Below, in pieces: positions 52,165 to 59,264 of a DNA stretch of 64,000 nucleotides. Below the pieces are notes generated by a model that searched no databases, was not told where the DNA came from, and saw only the letters and a program-made list of their open reading frames with translations. The stretch lies in assembly GCF_003335215.1 (NCBI RefSeq), contig NZ_QPGB01000004.1, forward strand, positions 124,001 to 188,000. The letters run 5' to 3'. The first letter of the stretch is position 1, and each line of letters starts with the position of its first letter. A program made the translations under genes and the position numbers. Origin of the DNA: Parvibium lacunae. Its GTDB lineage: Bacteria; Pseudomonadota; Gammaproteobacteria; Burkholderiales; Burkholderiaceae_D.

Positions 52165-52542
52165 ATGCTCAAAGCGCTCACCCTGATTTTGCTCTTTCAA
52201 CTCGCGGGGGAAACCATCACCCTGCTGTGTGGATTACCTATCCCCGGCCCAGTGATTGGCATGGCGTTATTGTTTGCGGCATTGCTCTGGCGTGGCCGCA
52301 AGCATCAGAACATTCCACTCCCGCTGCGTCAAACCGCACAGCAACTCCTGCAACATTTATCGCTATTGTTTGTACCCGCTGGGGTTGGCGTGATGCTGCA
52401 CATAGAACGTATTACTCACGAGTGGCTACCCATCACCCTGGCGCTGGTTGGCAGCACCCTTGCTGCGATTGTTGTCACTGCCTGGGTCTTGCAACGGGGT
52501 ATGCGAGGCCATGAGCAGATTGAGCCGGGAGAATCTTCATGA
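52165..52542 (+). CDS. lrgA: CidA/LrgA family membrane protein
   Basis: 125 residues with four membrane helices; LAGETITLLCGLPIPGPVIGMALLF and LSLLFVPAGVGVM are the family hallmarks. Works with LrgB; described as holin/antiholin-like in Gram-positives and linked to pyruvate uptake in some. The 3' end overlaps lrgB by 4 bases. Confidence 0.88.
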   Translation: MLKALTLILLFQLAGETITLLCGLPIPGPVIGMALLFAALLWRGRKHQNIPLPLRQTAQQLLQHLSLLFVPAGVGVMLHIERITHEWLPITLALVGSTLAAIVVTAWVLQRGMRGHEQIEPGESS

Positions 52543-53270
52543 GCCCGCGCATTACCGAAGTGTGGGTGTATTTATCCGCCACGCCTTTGCTGGGGCTCAC
52601 CCTCACGCTGGTGGTATACCAAGCGGCGGTATGGCTCAGCGCTCGCTGTGGGCAACATCCCCTGGTCAATCCAGTCCTCATCAGCATTCTGGTGTTGGTG
52701 GGTTTACTCAGTGCGACCGGAACACCTTATAAAACCTATTTTGATGGTGCGCAATTCGTCCACTTCCTGTTAGGACCAGCGACGGTCGCCCTTGCCATTC
52801 CGCTATACGCGCAATTCAATCAAGTTAAACGCCTGCTAGGGCCACTGCTTGTCGCGCTAATTGCTGGCTCGCTCGCTGCCGTCATGGTGGCATTACTGAT
52901 TGGCAAACTCTGCGGCGCTAGCCTGCCAACCTTGCTTTCCCTTGCCCCCAAATCCGTTACCACGCCGATTGCCATGGGCATCGCCGAGCGGATTGGCGGC
53001 TTACCCTCGCTCACCTCCGTCTTGGTGATTTTGACGGGCATCCTCGGCGCAGTTCTCGCACAACCGCTCTATCGCCTGATTCATTGCCCACAGCCTGCCG
53101 TGCAGGGCTTTGCGTTGGGTGTGGCCTCCCACGGCATTGGCACGGCCCGCGCCTTTCAGCTCGGTGAACGTGAGGGTGCTTTTGCTGCCCTCGCCATGGG
53201 TCTGCATGGCATGGTGTGTGCGCTGTATTTGCCGGCACTGATCGCACTGCTACGGGATTGGTTAATCTAA
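52539..53270 (+). CDS. lrgB: LrgB/CidB family membrane protein
   Basis: 243 residues, about eight helices. NPVLISILVLVGLL, FLLGPATVALAIPLYAQ, SLAPKSVTTPIAMGIAE and GVASHGIGTARAFQ are the usual LrgB blocks. Partner of the upstream LrgA. Convergent with the lipid cassette; only 19 bases separate the two stops. Confidence 0.9.
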   Translation: MSPRITEVWVYLSATPLLGLTLTLVVYQAAVWLSARCGQHPLVNPVLISILVLVGLLSATGTPYKTYFDGAQFVHFLLGPATVALAIPLYAQFNQVKRLLGPLLVALIAGSLAAVMVALLIGKLCGASLPTLLSLAPKSVTTPIAMGIAERIGGLPSLTSVLVILTGILGAVLAQPLYRLIHCPQPAVQGFALGVASHGIGTARAFQLGEREGAFAALAMGLHGMVCALYLPALIALLRDWLI

Positions 53271-53289
53271 TCCAAAACCCTCAATCCTT

Positions 53290-54033
53290 TCAACGATCGG
53301 GCATGCTGAACTGCTCCGCTTGGTGCACGTCCTGGTAGGTCAACATCGCTATTAGGGCTTGCTCTTTCTCGTCATCAAAGCCACACGCCCCATCCCATTG
53401 GGTTGGATTTTCATACGTCCCAAACAGCATGTCCCACCAGACAATATCCCCATAGTTATTTTTATGCCGCCCATACTCATGATGAATACGATGCATTTCA
53501 GGACGCTGGAAAATATAACCAATCCACTGCGGAGTGCGGATATTCGTATGGTAAAAAAATTCACCCAGTGCCGTACATGCTGTGTAGACGGCTGCGGCTT
53601 CAAGATTGAGGCCAAGCAAGGTATACACAAGTAGACTTCCAATGATTGAGTTCGCCACCATTTCACCGGGGTGTTTATAGAACGAGGTAATCACCTCTAA
53701 GCGCTGTGGGCTGTGATGTATTTGATGAAAGCCGCGCCACAAGCAATCGTACTCATGCCGCCAGCGATGCCACCAATAAAAAACGAATGTCGCAATAAAA
53801 TATGCAAACAGCCCAGCCCCCCACGTGGGCAAATAGTGAGATACATGAAATAGCGAATTTCCAAACAACCATTTTTCCCAAGTCACCCCTGCCAGCAACA
53901 CCACCCCCAGTTGAACACAGTTAACCAGAGCCACTCTGAGCGGCCAAGTTTTAACCTTGGGCAGTGTCCAGCCCGGCTTGAATCGTTCGATGAGGATACA
54001 CGCCACGCCCACCCCTAAAATAAGATTCAACAT
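53290..54033 (-). CDS. Sterol desaturase/fatty-acid hydroxylase family protein
   Basis: 247 residues with about four to five membrane helices. The di-iron histidine boxes are complete: HRWRH (89-93), HQIHH (103-107), HTN (162) and HRIHH plus HKNNYG (181-195). The family includes alkylglycerol monooxygenase, C4-sterol oxidase and carotenoid hydroxylases. It is translated with the YiiX/YebB-like gene (7-base overlap) and sits last in a cassette with a PEDS1/CarF homologue, so an ether-lipid or acyl-chain substrate is plausible (inference). Confidence 0.9.
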   Translation of the reverse strand: MLNLILGVGVACILIERFKPGWTLPKVKTWPLRVALVNCVQLGVVLLAGVTWEKWLFGNSLFHVSHYLPTWGAGLFAYFIATFVFYWWHRWRHEYDCLWRGFHQIHHSPQRLEVITSFYKHPGEMVANSIIGSLLVYTLLGLNLEAAAVYTACTALGEFFYHTNIRTPQWIGYIFQRPEMHRIHHEYGRHKNNYGDIVWWDMLFGTYENPTQWDGACGFDDEKEQALIAMLTYQDVHQAEQFSMPDR

Positions 54034-54629
54034 GCAACCTCCATATCGTTCTGATTGGATTCATAGACATTTACCACTTGGGCACTCCGCAACATACTCG
54101 CCGGGGTAACGGTACGACGCTGCCAAGGAATCCAACCAAAGTACCAGCAGCGCCAAAAACCTAATTTGGCGCGGGGGTTGTGTTGCAATAGGGTGGCGAA
54201 ATTTTCGACCTCGCCCACAGTCAGCCCCACCGCTTCTTGCAACACTTCGTACACCAAGCGTGAACAAAATTGCCGGCGGGAATACAGATCAAAACCGGTG
54301 TCGTACAAAATCCCCATGCGCTTATCGGCCGCCGCCACAATCGCTTGTGTTTGTTCTGCGGTAAAGCTCATGCGTGGGCGCTTAACGGCGACGCGCCCCT
54401 GTGTGCTGCGGTTAATGAATGTATCCAGCGAGGTGCGTTTGGAAAAGGGAAAAGTGCTTTCTGCAATTACCACCGCGCTGCCGTCTGCCTGAACCACGAT
54501 GCCAACGTGGTTTGTCCATGATGCAGTGGCATCTGAAACCATTTTGAATGGTTTGGCACACACATCAATAAAGACCAAATCGCCAATCTTTAATTGCCGC
54601 GCCAATTCTTGTATTGCTGCTGTATTCAT
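54027..54629 (-). CDS. Permuted NlpC/P60 cysteine hydrolase, YiiX/YebB-like
   Basis: 200 residues, no signal peptide seen. The circularly permuted papain-like order is clear: His41 in WTNHVGIVV, Glu57 in VIAEST, and Cys122 in RRQFCSRLVYEVL. This permuted group also contains lecithin:retinol acyltransferase-like enzymes, so the substrate might be a lipid ester or amide, not only a peptide. ATG 54629 has AGGAG at good distance. It lies between two membrane lipid oxidases and overlaps the next gene. Confidence 0.8.
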   Translation of the reverse strand: MNTAAIQELARQLKIGDLVFIDVCAKPFKMVSDATASWTNHVGIVVQADGSAVVIAESTFPFSKRTSLDTFINRSTQGRVAVKRPRMSFTAEQTQAIVAAADKRMGILYDTGFDLYSRRQFCSRLVYEVLQEAVGLTVGEVENFATLLQHNPRAKLGFWRCWYFGWIPWQRRTVTPASMLRSAQVVNVYESNQNDMEVAC

Positions 54630-54664
54630 CGTCTGCTCCTGATTTATATTTACAAACCGCCAAT

Positions 54665-55213
54665 TCATTGCGCGGTTTCATTAAAACGCTTAAGGCCAAA
54701 TACTTTCGTCATGACCCAATCCAACACTTTCCAAAAACCCATTTTTTCTAAAACTGGGTTGGTAAAGTTGGTAATCACACAGTAGTGCGTATCCTTCTCG
54801 CCAGTGTGGTGGCGCCCATGTTCACGGGGCGTTTGCAGGATTCGTAGCTTTTGTAAGCTGTGGACTAACCAGCCTTTTTCTTTTGGGTTTTGGTGCGCCC
54901 ATTTATGTATTTGGTTTGCATTCGCAACCAAAATCGCAAAGACCCATACACCGGCATTCAATACTTTTAACCAGGCGGCCCCCGCCAAGACCAGCAACGC
55001 AGCGAGGCATAAATCCGCAGAGCTTTGCCACCAACTCTTACTCAAAAATGCACGGGGCTTGCTGTGGTGCAGGCGGTTATCTTCCGCTACTTGGCCAAAC
55101 CACTTGCCGAGTATCGGCATTTTTTTATGAATATAGCCATCCTCAAACCAATGAAACAATCCTGACACGAGATCAGCGATTACCACACCAACAATTACTT
55201 GGATTACCAGCAT
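54665..55213 (-). CDS. CarF/PEDS1 (TMEM189)-family lipid desaturase
   Basis: 182 residues with hydrophobic helices and many histidines. The family blocks are easy to align with human TMEM189: ADLVSGLFHWFED (His21), LHHSKP (49-50), NQIHKWAH (His103, His107), PREHGRHH (132-136) and THYCVITNFTNPVLEKMGFW. CarF and PEDS1 form the vinyl-ether bond of plasmalogens. The second block differs from the usual REHHxxP. ATG 55213 has GGGAG before it; an upstream ATG 55231 would add six residues encoded by that ribosome site. Confidence 0.87.
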   Translation of the reverse strand: MLVIQVIVGVVIADLVSGLFHWFEDGYIHKKMPILGKWFGQVAEDNRLHHSKPRAFLSKSWWQSSADLCLAALLVLAGAAWLKVLNAGVWVFAILVANANQIHKWAHQNPKEKGWLVHSLQKLRILQTPREHGRHHTGEKDTHYCVITNFTNPVLEKMGFWKVLDWVMTKVFGLKRFNETAQ

Positions 55214-55304
55214 TGTCTGCTCCCTATTCAATATTTAACGAGTTGTCATACACAGCGCTGGCAGTGTGGTGCATAGTTATTTAATTTCCAATACCTTTGA
55301 TGTA

Positions 55305-55325
55305 GAGTATCGTTTTTCAATACTC
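55305..55325. promoter_or_regulatory. Inverted repeat in the XRE-desaturase intergenic region
   Basis: GAGTAT-N9-ATACTC lies 21 bases before the XRE gene start, and a further CAATAC half-site is at 55289-55294. It is a likely operator for the XRE regulator and could serve both divergent genes. Confidence 0.45.
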
Positions 55326-55345
55326 GGCGTTTTGCTATTCAAGCC

Positions 55346-56113
55346 ATGAGCCAGACTACCCAGCTACTTGATGCCCTAAAGCGTGTGCTCAAATCACGCG
55401 GACTGACCTATCAGCACATCGCCGACCGGATTGGCTTGAGTGAGGCGAGCGTGAAGCGGCTATTCGCTGAAGAGAGCTTCACGTTGCAAAAACTGGAGAA
55501 TGTTTGTCTCGCGCTAGAGATAGATTTTTTTGAGCTGGCCAAGCTAGCGCGAGGCTTGCGTGACAGCGCTGATGTGCTGACACCAGAGCAAGAACAAAAA
55601 CTCGCGAGTAACCCGAAGTTGCTCGCCATTTTTTACTTGCTGTATAACGAATGGGATATTCAACAGATTCAAGCGCACTACGACATCACCGAAGCCGACT
55701 GCATTCGGCTCATGGCCCAATTAGAAAAAATCGGGGTGTTAGATTTACTCCCTAACAATCGCGTTCGGCTAAAAGTCAGTCGTAATTTACGCTTAAGAAT
55801 GGATGGCGCGATTCGTAATCGTTACGGGCAAGAAGCCATGCAAGATTTTTTAATGGTACGCTTTGAAGAATATGGCGGGCTATTCCGTTTTGAATTCCGC
55901 GAACTCTCCGCCGCCTCGGTAGAAATTATCAAACGCAAAATCGAACGCCTAGCCGCTGAATTTAATGAGCTAGCGGAGTTAGACAGCACCCTCCCGCCGC
56001 AACGTCGAAAAACGATTGGCGTGGGGCTGGGCATTCGGCCTTGGACGATTAGTTTTGTGACGGGGTTGAGAGAACGAGCTAAACCAAAAAACCATCCGCG
56101 TGCAGCGCATTAA
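55346..56113 (+). CDS. XRE-family transcriptional regulator
   Basis: 255 residues. An N-terminal XRE HTH (about 8-65: LTYQHIADRIGLSEASVKRLFAEESFTLQKLENVCLAL), then a longer helical C-terminal region with no family I recognise (NEWDIQQIQAHYDITEADCIRL looks like a second DNA-binding or sensing part). It faces the lipid cassette with 132 bases between the starts and an inverted repeat in that gap, so it likely controls it. Confidence 0.85.
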   Translation: MSQTTQLLDALKRVLKSRGLTYQHIADRIGLSEASVKRLFAEESFTLQKLENVCLALEIDFFELAKLARGLRDSADVLTPEQEQKLASNPKLLAIFYLLYNEWDIQQIQAHYDITEADCIRLMAQLEKIGVLDLLPNNRVRLKVSRNLRLRMDGAIRNRYGQEAMQDFLMVRFEEYGGLFRFEFRELSAASVEIIKRKIERLAAEFNELAELDSTLPPQRRKTIGVGLGIRPWTISFVTGLRERAKPKNHPRAAH

Positions 56114-56123
56114 CTGACACCAT

Positions 56124-56510
56124 TTATTCGCCGTGGGTCTTATTCCAGGTCTGTAAAACGCGGCGATCCCGTTTCGTCGGCCTGCCCTTAAACGCTTGCA
56201 TTGGCTCAGGGGCAAGGCGGCGCTGCTCGGCTTGTTCGTGCCGTCGCGCCATGCTGACGACCGTTTCTTCGTAGAGCAACCTTGCTTCTGGGGCTGGGCC
56301 ACGTTTATCGCTAAGGGCGCGCACAAATACATCGTATTCGGTAGGGCCGATGCGAATTTTTAAACGGTCGCCCAACTTGATTTCTTTAGCTGGCTTGGGG
56401 CGCTCGTCATTTAAGAAAATTTTGCCGCCATCAATGGCTTGCGTCGCGAGGCTGCGGGTTTTGAAAAACCGCGCGGCCCATAGCCATTTATCTAAGCGCA
56501 CGCTACTCAT
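56124..56510 (-). CDS. hslR: Hsp15-like S4 RNA-binding protein
   Basis: 128 residues. The S4 domain is VRLDKWLWAARFFKTRSLATQAIDGGKIFLNDERPKPAKEIKLGD, with a basic C-terminal tail. Hsp15 binds 50S subunits carrying stalled nascent chains. Convergent with the XRE gene, with 10 bases between the stops. 28 bases downstream of the heptose adenylyltransferase. Confidence 0.9.
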   Translation of the reverse strand: MSSVRLDKWLWAARFFKTRSLATQAIDGGKIFLNDERPKPAKEIKLGDRLKIRIGPTEYDVFVRALSDKRGPAPEARLLYEETVVSMARRHEQAEQRRLAPEPMQAFKGRPTKRDRRVLQTWNKTHGE

Positions 56511-56538
56511 ACCCCTTCACCTATTTTCTACCGGGCAG

Positions 56539-57030
56539 TTACGCGCCAGGGCCTGCTTGGCGGATTTTATTCAGCGTTGCCGTCGTTGATCGTTCAAACT
56601 CAAAGGGAATGGAATGCACTTGTCCACCCCAGGTGATGACCTCTTTTGCCCCCACCATTTTTTCAATCGGCCAATCCCCGCCTTTTACCAAGATGTCGGG
56701 CTTGACTTGCAAAATGGTATTGAGTGGCGTGTCGTCGGTAAACACGGTGACTAAACTCACCGACTCCAACGCCGCCAATACCGCCATGCGATCGCCTTCA
56801 TTGTTAATCGGACGATCATCGCCTTTGCCCAAGCGTTTGACGGAGGCATCGCTATTCGCTGCAACTACTAGGCTCGCTCCCAATGCGCGGGCTTGTGCAA
56901 GATAGGTGGCATGACCACGATGCAGAATGTCAAACACCCCGTTGGTAAACACAATGGGGCGCGGAAGTTCGGCAACGCGGGCGGCGAGTTGGGTGGGATC
57001 ACAGATTTTTTGTTCGAAGCGCACTTTCAT
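56539..57030 (-). CDS. rfaE2: D-glycero-beta-D-manno-heptose 1-phosphate adenylyltransferase
   Basis: 163 residues, the C-terminal half of HldE as a separate protein. Nucleotidyl-transferase fold with HRGH (TNGVFDILHRGHATYLAQA) and NSDASVKRLGKGDDRPINNEGDR, then VKGGDW. It activates heptose 1-phosphate for LPS core. The start overlaps the AAA ATPase stop by 4 bases (TGA/ATG), so the two are cotranslated. Confidence 0.94.
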   Translation of the reverse strand: MKVRFEQKICDPTQLAARVAELPRPIVFTNGVFDILHRGHATYLAQARALGASLVVAANSDASVKRLGKGDDRPINNEGDRMAVLAALESVSLVTVFTDDTPLNTILQVKPDILVKGGDWPIEKMVGAKEVITWGGQVHSIPFEFERSTTATLNKIRQAGPGA

Positions 57031-58394: not shown

Positions 58395-59264
58395 CTAGGC
58401 CGTTTGTGCGGATTGCTCAACGCCTGTGAGTTTTGCGACGCGCGCCAGTGCATCCTTGCGGAAGCGGTTCAAGTCCTGCACTGAAGCGAAGCTGTGTTCA
58501 AACAACAGGCTCAAATTATGCAAAATGCGATCCACCACTTTGCTTTCCCAGACGCTATCAAATTTGATCTGGCTATCCAGCCAGTTTTCTAGCCAGCCAG
58601 GTTCGGGGGTGCGGCTTTGAATCGTGTCATTCGGGAACAGGGCTTCATTCACATGCAGGTTAGTTGGGTGCAAGGCTTGCTGCGTACGTTTGGCCGAGGC
58701 CATCAGTACGCCAATTTTGGCAAACGCGGCACGCGCTGTATCCCCCGCTTCTTGCAGGGCGCGTTTCATGTAGCGCAGGTAGGCGCCGCCATGGCGGGCT
58801 TCATCTTGCGCGAGGGTTTTGTAGATTTGTTGAATCACGGGTTCAGTGTGCCATTCTGCGGCACAGCGATACCAGTGATTTAGGCGAATTTCGCCGCAGA
58901 AATGCAGCATCAGGGTTTCCAGCGGCGGGGCTGGATCGAACTCAAAGCGGACAGCATGCAATTCTGCTTCTGTTGGCAACAATTCTGGGCGAAAGCGCCG
59001 CAGGTATTCCATCAAAACCAGCGCATGCTTTTGTTCTTCAAAAAACCAAACCGACATAAAGGCCGAAAAATCGCTGTCGTGCCGGTTATCGCGCAAAAAC
59101 ATTTCCGTCGCGGGCAGTGCCGCCCACTCGGTAATGGCATTCATTTTGATGGTTTTAGCCTGCTCATCGCTGAGTTTGCTGGCATCGAAACGGTCCCATG
59201 GGATATCTTTTTCCATATTCCAGCGGACGGCTTCGAGGGCTTTGAAGAGTTCCGGGTAAAGCAT
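58395..59264 (-). CDS. Ferritin-like di-iron protein
   Basis: 289 residues, all-helical. Di-iron ligand motifs are visible as E46/E54, WFFEEQKH (Glu76/77, His80), Glu125 and DEARH (154-158), in the order found in acyl-ACP-desaturase/AurF-like oxygenases. The spacing suggests an oxygenase or desaturase, not iron storage. AGGAACAC is the ribosome site. It lies 57 bases after the NTF2-like gene and before the terminator, so it likely belongs to the lipid operon. Confidence 0.78.
   Translation of the reverse strand: MLYPELFKALEAVRWNMEKDIPWDRFDASKLSDEQAKTIKMNAITEWAALPATEMFLRDNRHDSDFSAFMSVWFFEEQKHALVLMEYLRRFRPELLPTEAELHAVRFEFDPAPPLETLMLHFCGEIRLNHWYRCAAEWHTEPVIQQIYKTLAQDEARHGGAYLRYMKRALQEAGDTARAAFAKIGVLMASAKRTQQALHPTNLHVNEALFPNDTIQSRTPEPGWLENWLDSQIKFDSVWESKVVDRILHNLSLLFEHSFASVQDLNRFRKDALARVAKLTGVEQSAQTA

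Follow-up and report, generated by a model that had tools for sequence, protein, structure and literature searches.

Three enzyme genes on the minus strand of the window, the 64,000-nucleotide stretch of Parvibium lacunae DNA analyzed here, probably constitute an operon for O2-dependent remodeling of acyl chains and lysophospholipids under a dedicated, lipid- or envelope-responsive XRE regulator, a reading that we hold with moderate confidence. At the sequence level, the analysis establishes a regulator gene, a palindrome conserved between divergently transcribed genes, and enzymes whose catalytic residues are intact. The conserved element is the regulator rather than the combination of the three enzymes.

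The trio comprises a CarF-like PF10520 membrane di-iron lipid desaturase of what we term the N-type clade (54665–55213; assigned by Pfam, NCBIfam, alignment and a structure model), a YebB-type permuted papain-like (C92) enzyme (54027–54629; Pfam, NCBIfam and alignment with 2if6), and an integral membrane di-iron enzyme of the FA_hydroxylase family, PF04116 (53290–54033; Pfam, NCBIfam and histidine boxes), all on the minus strand. The XRE-type regulator is transcribed divergently on the plus strand (55346–56113; Pfam HTH_26 and a fold search with the model). The four genes were confirmed as real, and the open reading frames and Pfam assignments bear out the sequence-only reading of three lipid-type genes behind a divergent XRE gene. 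The trio is packed as one operon. The overlapping ends that had been claimed are present between the C92 and hydroxylase genes (7 nt), whereas the CarF-like and C92 genes overlap, by 4 nt, only if the latter starts at 54668; its start with a good ribosome binding site, 54629, leaves a 35-nt gap. The CarF-like gene most likely starts at ATG 55213 rather than at TTG 55231. Beyond the operon lies a convergent LrgB-family gene, the end of which is 19 nt from that of the operon. The GC content of the trio (48.8%) and of the XRE gene (49.5%) is below that of the window (54.2%, standard deviation 2.5% for windows of equal length), and this shared low GC content means that the four genes may have been acquired as one unit. 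No Rfam match was obtained in 52500–56600, and a sigma-70 scan revealed no promoter-like site in the trio/XRE intergenic region. Located 2.3 kb past the regulator is a gene (58395–59264, minus strand) for a ferritin-like di-iron protein, which weakly matches the acyl-ACP desaturase and AurF families.

When 84,980 species genomes were scanned, 48 CarF-like loci emerged, none of which has a C92 gene or a hydroxylase of the window type beside the CarF-like gene; a single weak PF04116 neighbor was seen (3e-16, L040). Among 399 genomes of the order, the window genome alone carries the trio. The trio as a conserved operon was thus rejected, the exact combination having been seen in the window genome only, and no description of it was found in the open-access literature, as the sequence-only reading had anticipated. 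The co-occurrence check proposed in that reading fails for the exact trio beyond the window genome but succeeds for each gene separately, in that each partners the same regulator family. A homologue of the XRE gene adjoins 12 of the roughly 21 proteobacterial CarF-like loci, mostly in divergent orientation and in three cases in line. In the scan of the order, four of seven N-type CarF genes have a regulator within 1 kb, compared with an estimated frequency of ~ 2e-4 for a random gene, with relatedness uncorrected.

The regulator contains an N-terminal Cro/C1-type helix-turn-helix domain (HTH_26, 6.3e-07 in Pfam), a middle helical/beta segment and a C-terminal helical domain. The fold search superposed the helix-turn-helix domain on ClgR and C.Esp1396I and matched nothing else, so it gives no hint of a ligand. 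Homologues occur in 99 of the 399 genomes of the order, often in one or two copies. Divergent neighbors were read for about 122 distinct regulator copies, a sample uncorrected for relatedness in which the gene calls for high-GC relatives are mechanical; the partner assignments are backed by Pfam and NCBIfam. Each of the three window genes appears, in some other genome, as the partner of this regulator family. The divergent partner is CarF-like in the window and at L006, L013, L015, L016, L018, L032, L035, L041, L050, L062, L125 and L126, a hydroxylase at L101, L102 and L104 (and at L097, downstream of a ceramidase-like gene), and C92 at L143, where Aas follows, and L161. In one genome (G301), CarF-like (L126) and C92 (L161) each have a regulator copy of their own. 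LplT/Aas is the partner in 17 divergent operons and a PF00487 acyl desaturase at L072 and L073. The commonest partner, at 22 loci, is a ceramidase-like protein of the CREST/alkaline ceramidase superfamily, which retains the SxxxH, Asp and HxxxH motifs in most examples; these proteins of the relatives score below the Pfam ceramidase cutoff, and none is encoded in the window operon. At 68 regulator loci, about half, the partner has no assignment or is not a lipid enzyme. One regulator copy (L127, G300:C46) is divergent from a gene that reads as PspA-like phage-shock, a neighbor that hints at an envelope-stress signal. The window genome has a second regulator copy (L136, G000:C6:42109–42813) with no clear operator and no lipid partner.

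The predicted operator at 55306–55324, AGTATCGTTTTTCAATACT, with the consensus RGTATCR-N5-YGATACY, lies between the regulator and CarF-like genes. The palindrome RGTATC-N7-GATACY recurs between the regulator and its divergent partner, usually 20–50 bp before the regulator gene. A perfect GTAT-N9-ATAC is present in 42 of 125 regions upstream of the regulator compared with 0.22 expected, and 82 of the 125 have a site with at most one mismatch compared with 5.3 expected; these expectations derive from first-order Markov shuffles, a model that does not cover promoters and relatedness. In total, the window genome contains four perfect operator-like sites, one of them at the window locus, and a genome-wide scan that allowed one mismatch was at background (14 sites versus 10). 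A genome-wide regulon defined by the operator was rejected on these counts. Another of the perfect sites (C2:473212–473230, L206:1501–1519) precedes a rubrerythrin-like gene by ~ 130 bp, with a pirin gene in divergent orientation. Homologues of the rubrerythrin-like gene adjoin the closest regulator orthologues (L068–L070), which together with the upstream operator suggests that it is a second regulon member.

An independent check with named replicons was drawn from a plasmid collection. Plasmid pMTS1 of Cupriavidus sp. P-10 carries the regulator divergent from C92 and hydroxylase genes with a perfect operator between them, the window arrangement without CarF, and its C92 and hydroxylase proteins are 57% and 70% identical to those of the window. 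The regulator also faces C92 in Burkholderia stagnalis, B. cenocepacia and B. arboris, with a perfect operator, a one-mismatch site and a two-mismatch site, respectively. In Comamonas odontotermitis it faces a ceramidase-like gene followed by an LplT-acyltransferase gene, with no clear operator. The C92 gene of B. cenocepacia CMCC(B)23006 is split across two frames and apparently broken (L243:2305–2880), and a further C92 copy lies elsewhere on that replicon. The collection contains no copy of the CarF-like protein. Plasmid II of Legionella fallonii encodes a hydroxylase 72% identical to that of the window, alone beside traI (L239:4923–5642), a mobile copy on a conjugative plasmid.

The CarF-like protein matches Lipid_desat (PF10520) with an E value of 2.1e-36 and 126 bits against a gathering threshold of 26.4 in Pfam, and falls well short of the NCBIfam CarF equivalog cutoff (75 versus 500 bits). 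Its structure was modeled with a pLDDT of 91, and neither sequence nor fold searches identified a solved homologous structure. The sequence blocks NQIHKWAH, PREHGRHH and NPVLEKMGFW that had been read as CarF/PEDS1 hallmarks were located in the protein. Signature residues were assessed in an alignment of the window protein, its relatives and a human PEDS1 sequence that we take to be the reference and that agrees with the published functional positions at 11 of 11 (PMC8960569). All eight iron-binding histidines are retained in the window protein, along with the essential aspartate (mouse D100); the same holds for the complete N-type relatives, except that L018 has Asn for one His. A ninth His (CarF H113, mouse H131) is replaced by Lys in the window protein and mostly by Lys, Arg, Asn or Leu across the clade, with His in some Verrucomicrobia, and the Phe118 position is Asn in the window protein and in every N-type member. 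The ninth His is present in true CarF/PEDS1, and plant and alphaproteobacterial homologues without it did not complement in M. xanthus (PMC9131029). Phe118 is common to PEDS1 and the plant phosphatidylglycerol delta-3-trans desaturase FAD4, and its mutant keeps 6% activity (PMC8960569). Because the catalytic histidines and aspartate are kept and the ninth His and Phe118 are replaced, the window protein belongs to a third PF10520 clade that retains the catalytic center and lacks the PEDS1 signature. It shares with the plasmanylethanolamine desaturase CarF/PEDS1 (TMEM189) the PF10520 fold family and a membrane location, but differs also in having no N-terminal extension, other neighbors and no visible ether-lipid pathway. 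FAD4, compared here by its published description, likewise has the eight histidines and lacks the ninth, but differs at the Phe118 position. Hence not every PF10520 protein should be annotated as a plasmalogen desaturase, since the N-type clade is without two residues that this activity needs. Another Burkholderiales genome encodes a PF10520 protein in which every PEDS1/CarF signature residue is present, the ninth His and Phe118 included (L061:1474–2139, G410). To our knowledge, true CarF homologues have been reported only from myxobacteria and Leptospira.

The C92 protein matches Peptidase_C92 (PF05708, 1e-33 in Pfam) and exceeds the NCBIfam YebB cutoff (250 versus 227 bits). It aligns with YiiX (2if6) at 1.2e-14, which matches His41, Glu57, Tyr109 and Cys122 as the catalytic residues, so that the His/Glu/Tyr/Cys set shared by YebB/YiiX and S. 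aureus LnsA is all there. The YiiX crystal structure contains a co-crystallized fatty acid, and acyl-chain transfer or phospholipid hydrolysis is described for its relatives (PMC3142127, PMC7387801). The window enzyme differs from YebB/YiiX and LnsA in its operon setting, beside genes for di-iron lipid enzymes and under a regulator dedicated to the operon. No signal peptide is evident in it, whereas the C92 homologue at L143 looks exported. The hydroxylase (PF04116, 1.8e-30, 106.5 bits against a gathering threshold of 31 in Pfam) has the boxes HX3H, HX2HH and HX2HH, and thus resembles OlsE, AGMO and sterol desaturases in its three-box histidines and membrane character. OlsE is its best named match, a weak one far under the NCBIfam cutoff (67 versus 475 bits).

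A link to lysophospholipid reacylation emerges from the relatives. At 13 verrucomicrobial loci LplT (and Aas) comes immediately after the CarF-like gene (L012, L017, L019–L022, L025, L027–L029, L031, L034 and L044), and one gammaproteobacterial locus combines the regulator with a divergent CarF-like gene and LplT-Aas. This adjacency argues strongly for a functional connection. LplT/Aas flips and reacylates lysophospholipids (PMC11416262, PMC8926400); the system shields E. coli against phospholipases, and aas contributes to the defense of P. aeruginosa against a phospholipase toxin (PMC8926400). In relatives LplT/Aas partners CarF-like, hydroxylase, C92 and ceramidase-like genes, but it is absent from the window operon. 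The window genome encodes a fused LplT-acyltransferase elsewhere, next to a patatin-like phospholipase, and no operator-like site is present at that locus.

The chemistry of these enzyme families is established; what the cassette acts on, what it makes, in which order its steps run and which signal it answers are inferred. The regulator would bind the palindrome and, following a membrane or lipid signal, govern both its own gene and the operon, which would be switched on through loss of XRE binding. The CarF-like enzyme would then desaturate (oxidize) a glycerophospholipid chain, the PF04116 enzyme would hydroxylate a lipid chain, and the C92 thiol enzyme would take off or transfer an acyl chain via an acyl-cysteine intermediate. 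Lyso-lipids could be reacylated by the LplT/acyltransferase protein, whose gene lies elsewhere in the window genome but belongs to the corresponding operon in many relatives. In the simplest scheme, acyl chains would be edited by oxidation at the inner membrane, and this editing would be coupled with their removal or transfer and with reacylation. The substrate is more probably an ordinary acyl phospholipid, or its lyso form, than an ether lipid.

The remodeling reading is preferred because the regulator recurs beside lipid enzymes, the operator is conserved, CarF-like genes adjoin LplT and YiiX bound a fatty acid. It is weakened by the restriction of the trio to the window genome, by the half of the regulator partners that are unassigned or non-lipid, by the lack of an operator at the LplT/acyltransferase locus and by the one-mismatch scan at background. 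The trio's uniqueness among the loci found would also fit unrelated housekeeping enzymes clustered by accident, but tight packing, a low GC content shared with the regulator and the recurrence of each gene elsewhere with the same regulator and operator make chance proximity very improbable. The sequence-only reading of lipid-editing genes grouped behind a divergently transcribed regulator is supported, but the ether or vinyl-ether product it had suggested is not. In such a cassette the CarF-like enzyme would make vinyl ethers and the hydroxylase would be AGMO-like, perhaps acting on scavenged ether lipids; PF10520 and PF04116 membership and the full set of eight histidines and aspartate agree with this, and scavenging via LplT/Aas would bypass the need for AGPS. 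However, the two changed positions, both functionally tested, are needed for full PEDS1/CarF activity, and homologues without the ninth His failed complementation (PMC9131029). Searches of the window genome with FAD-oxidase_C and FAR-domain models revealed no host supply of alkyl-ether substrate: no AGPS was seen, since the FAD-oxidase_C matches were interpreted as GlcD/GlcE and D-lactate dehydrogenases, and the FAR-domain matches, all epimerase-like, include no clear FAR. Ether-lipid synthesis was ruled against on these grounds. The same-order homologue at L061, which has the PEDS1 residues, reaches 152 bits with the CarF model compared with 75 for the window protein. With the PEDS1 signature residues missing and neither AGPS nor a clear FAR in the genome, the ether-lipid reading appears unlikely, and we give it little credence.

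Two other accounts, each rather doubtful, keep the regulator and change the lipid or the purpose. Amide-linked aminolipids such as ornithine lipids could be the target, with C92/CREST amidases cleaving, and the hydroxylase and CarF-like enzyme modifying, N-acyl amino-acid lipids. This would accommodate the hydroxylase matching OlsE best among named proteins, albeit under the cutoff, an OlsB-like N-acyltransferase in the window genome (159 bits, cutoff 350), the many ceramidase-like partners and the fatty-acyl amide proposed as YiiX substrate (PMC3142127). Nevertheless, the scores fall under the curated cutoffs, no ols gene is found in the neighborhoods examined, and the recurring partner, LplT/Aas, acts on lysophospholipids. 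The regulon might instead be induced by lysophospholipid or phospholipase attack, with toxic lysolipids being repaired or removed. Here the frequency of LplT/Aas as partner counts in favor, together with the protection it affords E. coli, the role of aas in P. aeruginosa (PMC8926400) and the PspA-like neighbor of one regulator copy, but reacylation does not need oxidative lipid enzymes and the window operon itself lacks LplT/Aas.

A broader form of the remodeling reading can be advanced tentatively: an undescribed XRE family with a GTATC-N7-GATAC operator might govern interchangeable membrane-lipid enzymes in beta- and gammaproteobacteria, among them a third PF10520 clade, neither PEDS1 nor FAD4, that would introduce a new double bond into (lyso)phospholipids for lysolipid remodeling or repair. 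The analysis provides a testable regulon and an operator sequence for YebB, bacterial CREST/ceramidase-like, non-CarF PF10520 and orphan PF04116 enzymes. Elsewhere in the window genome, a LuxI-like autoinducer synthase is encoded adjacent to a LuxR-type gene (L238, G000:C1:192658).
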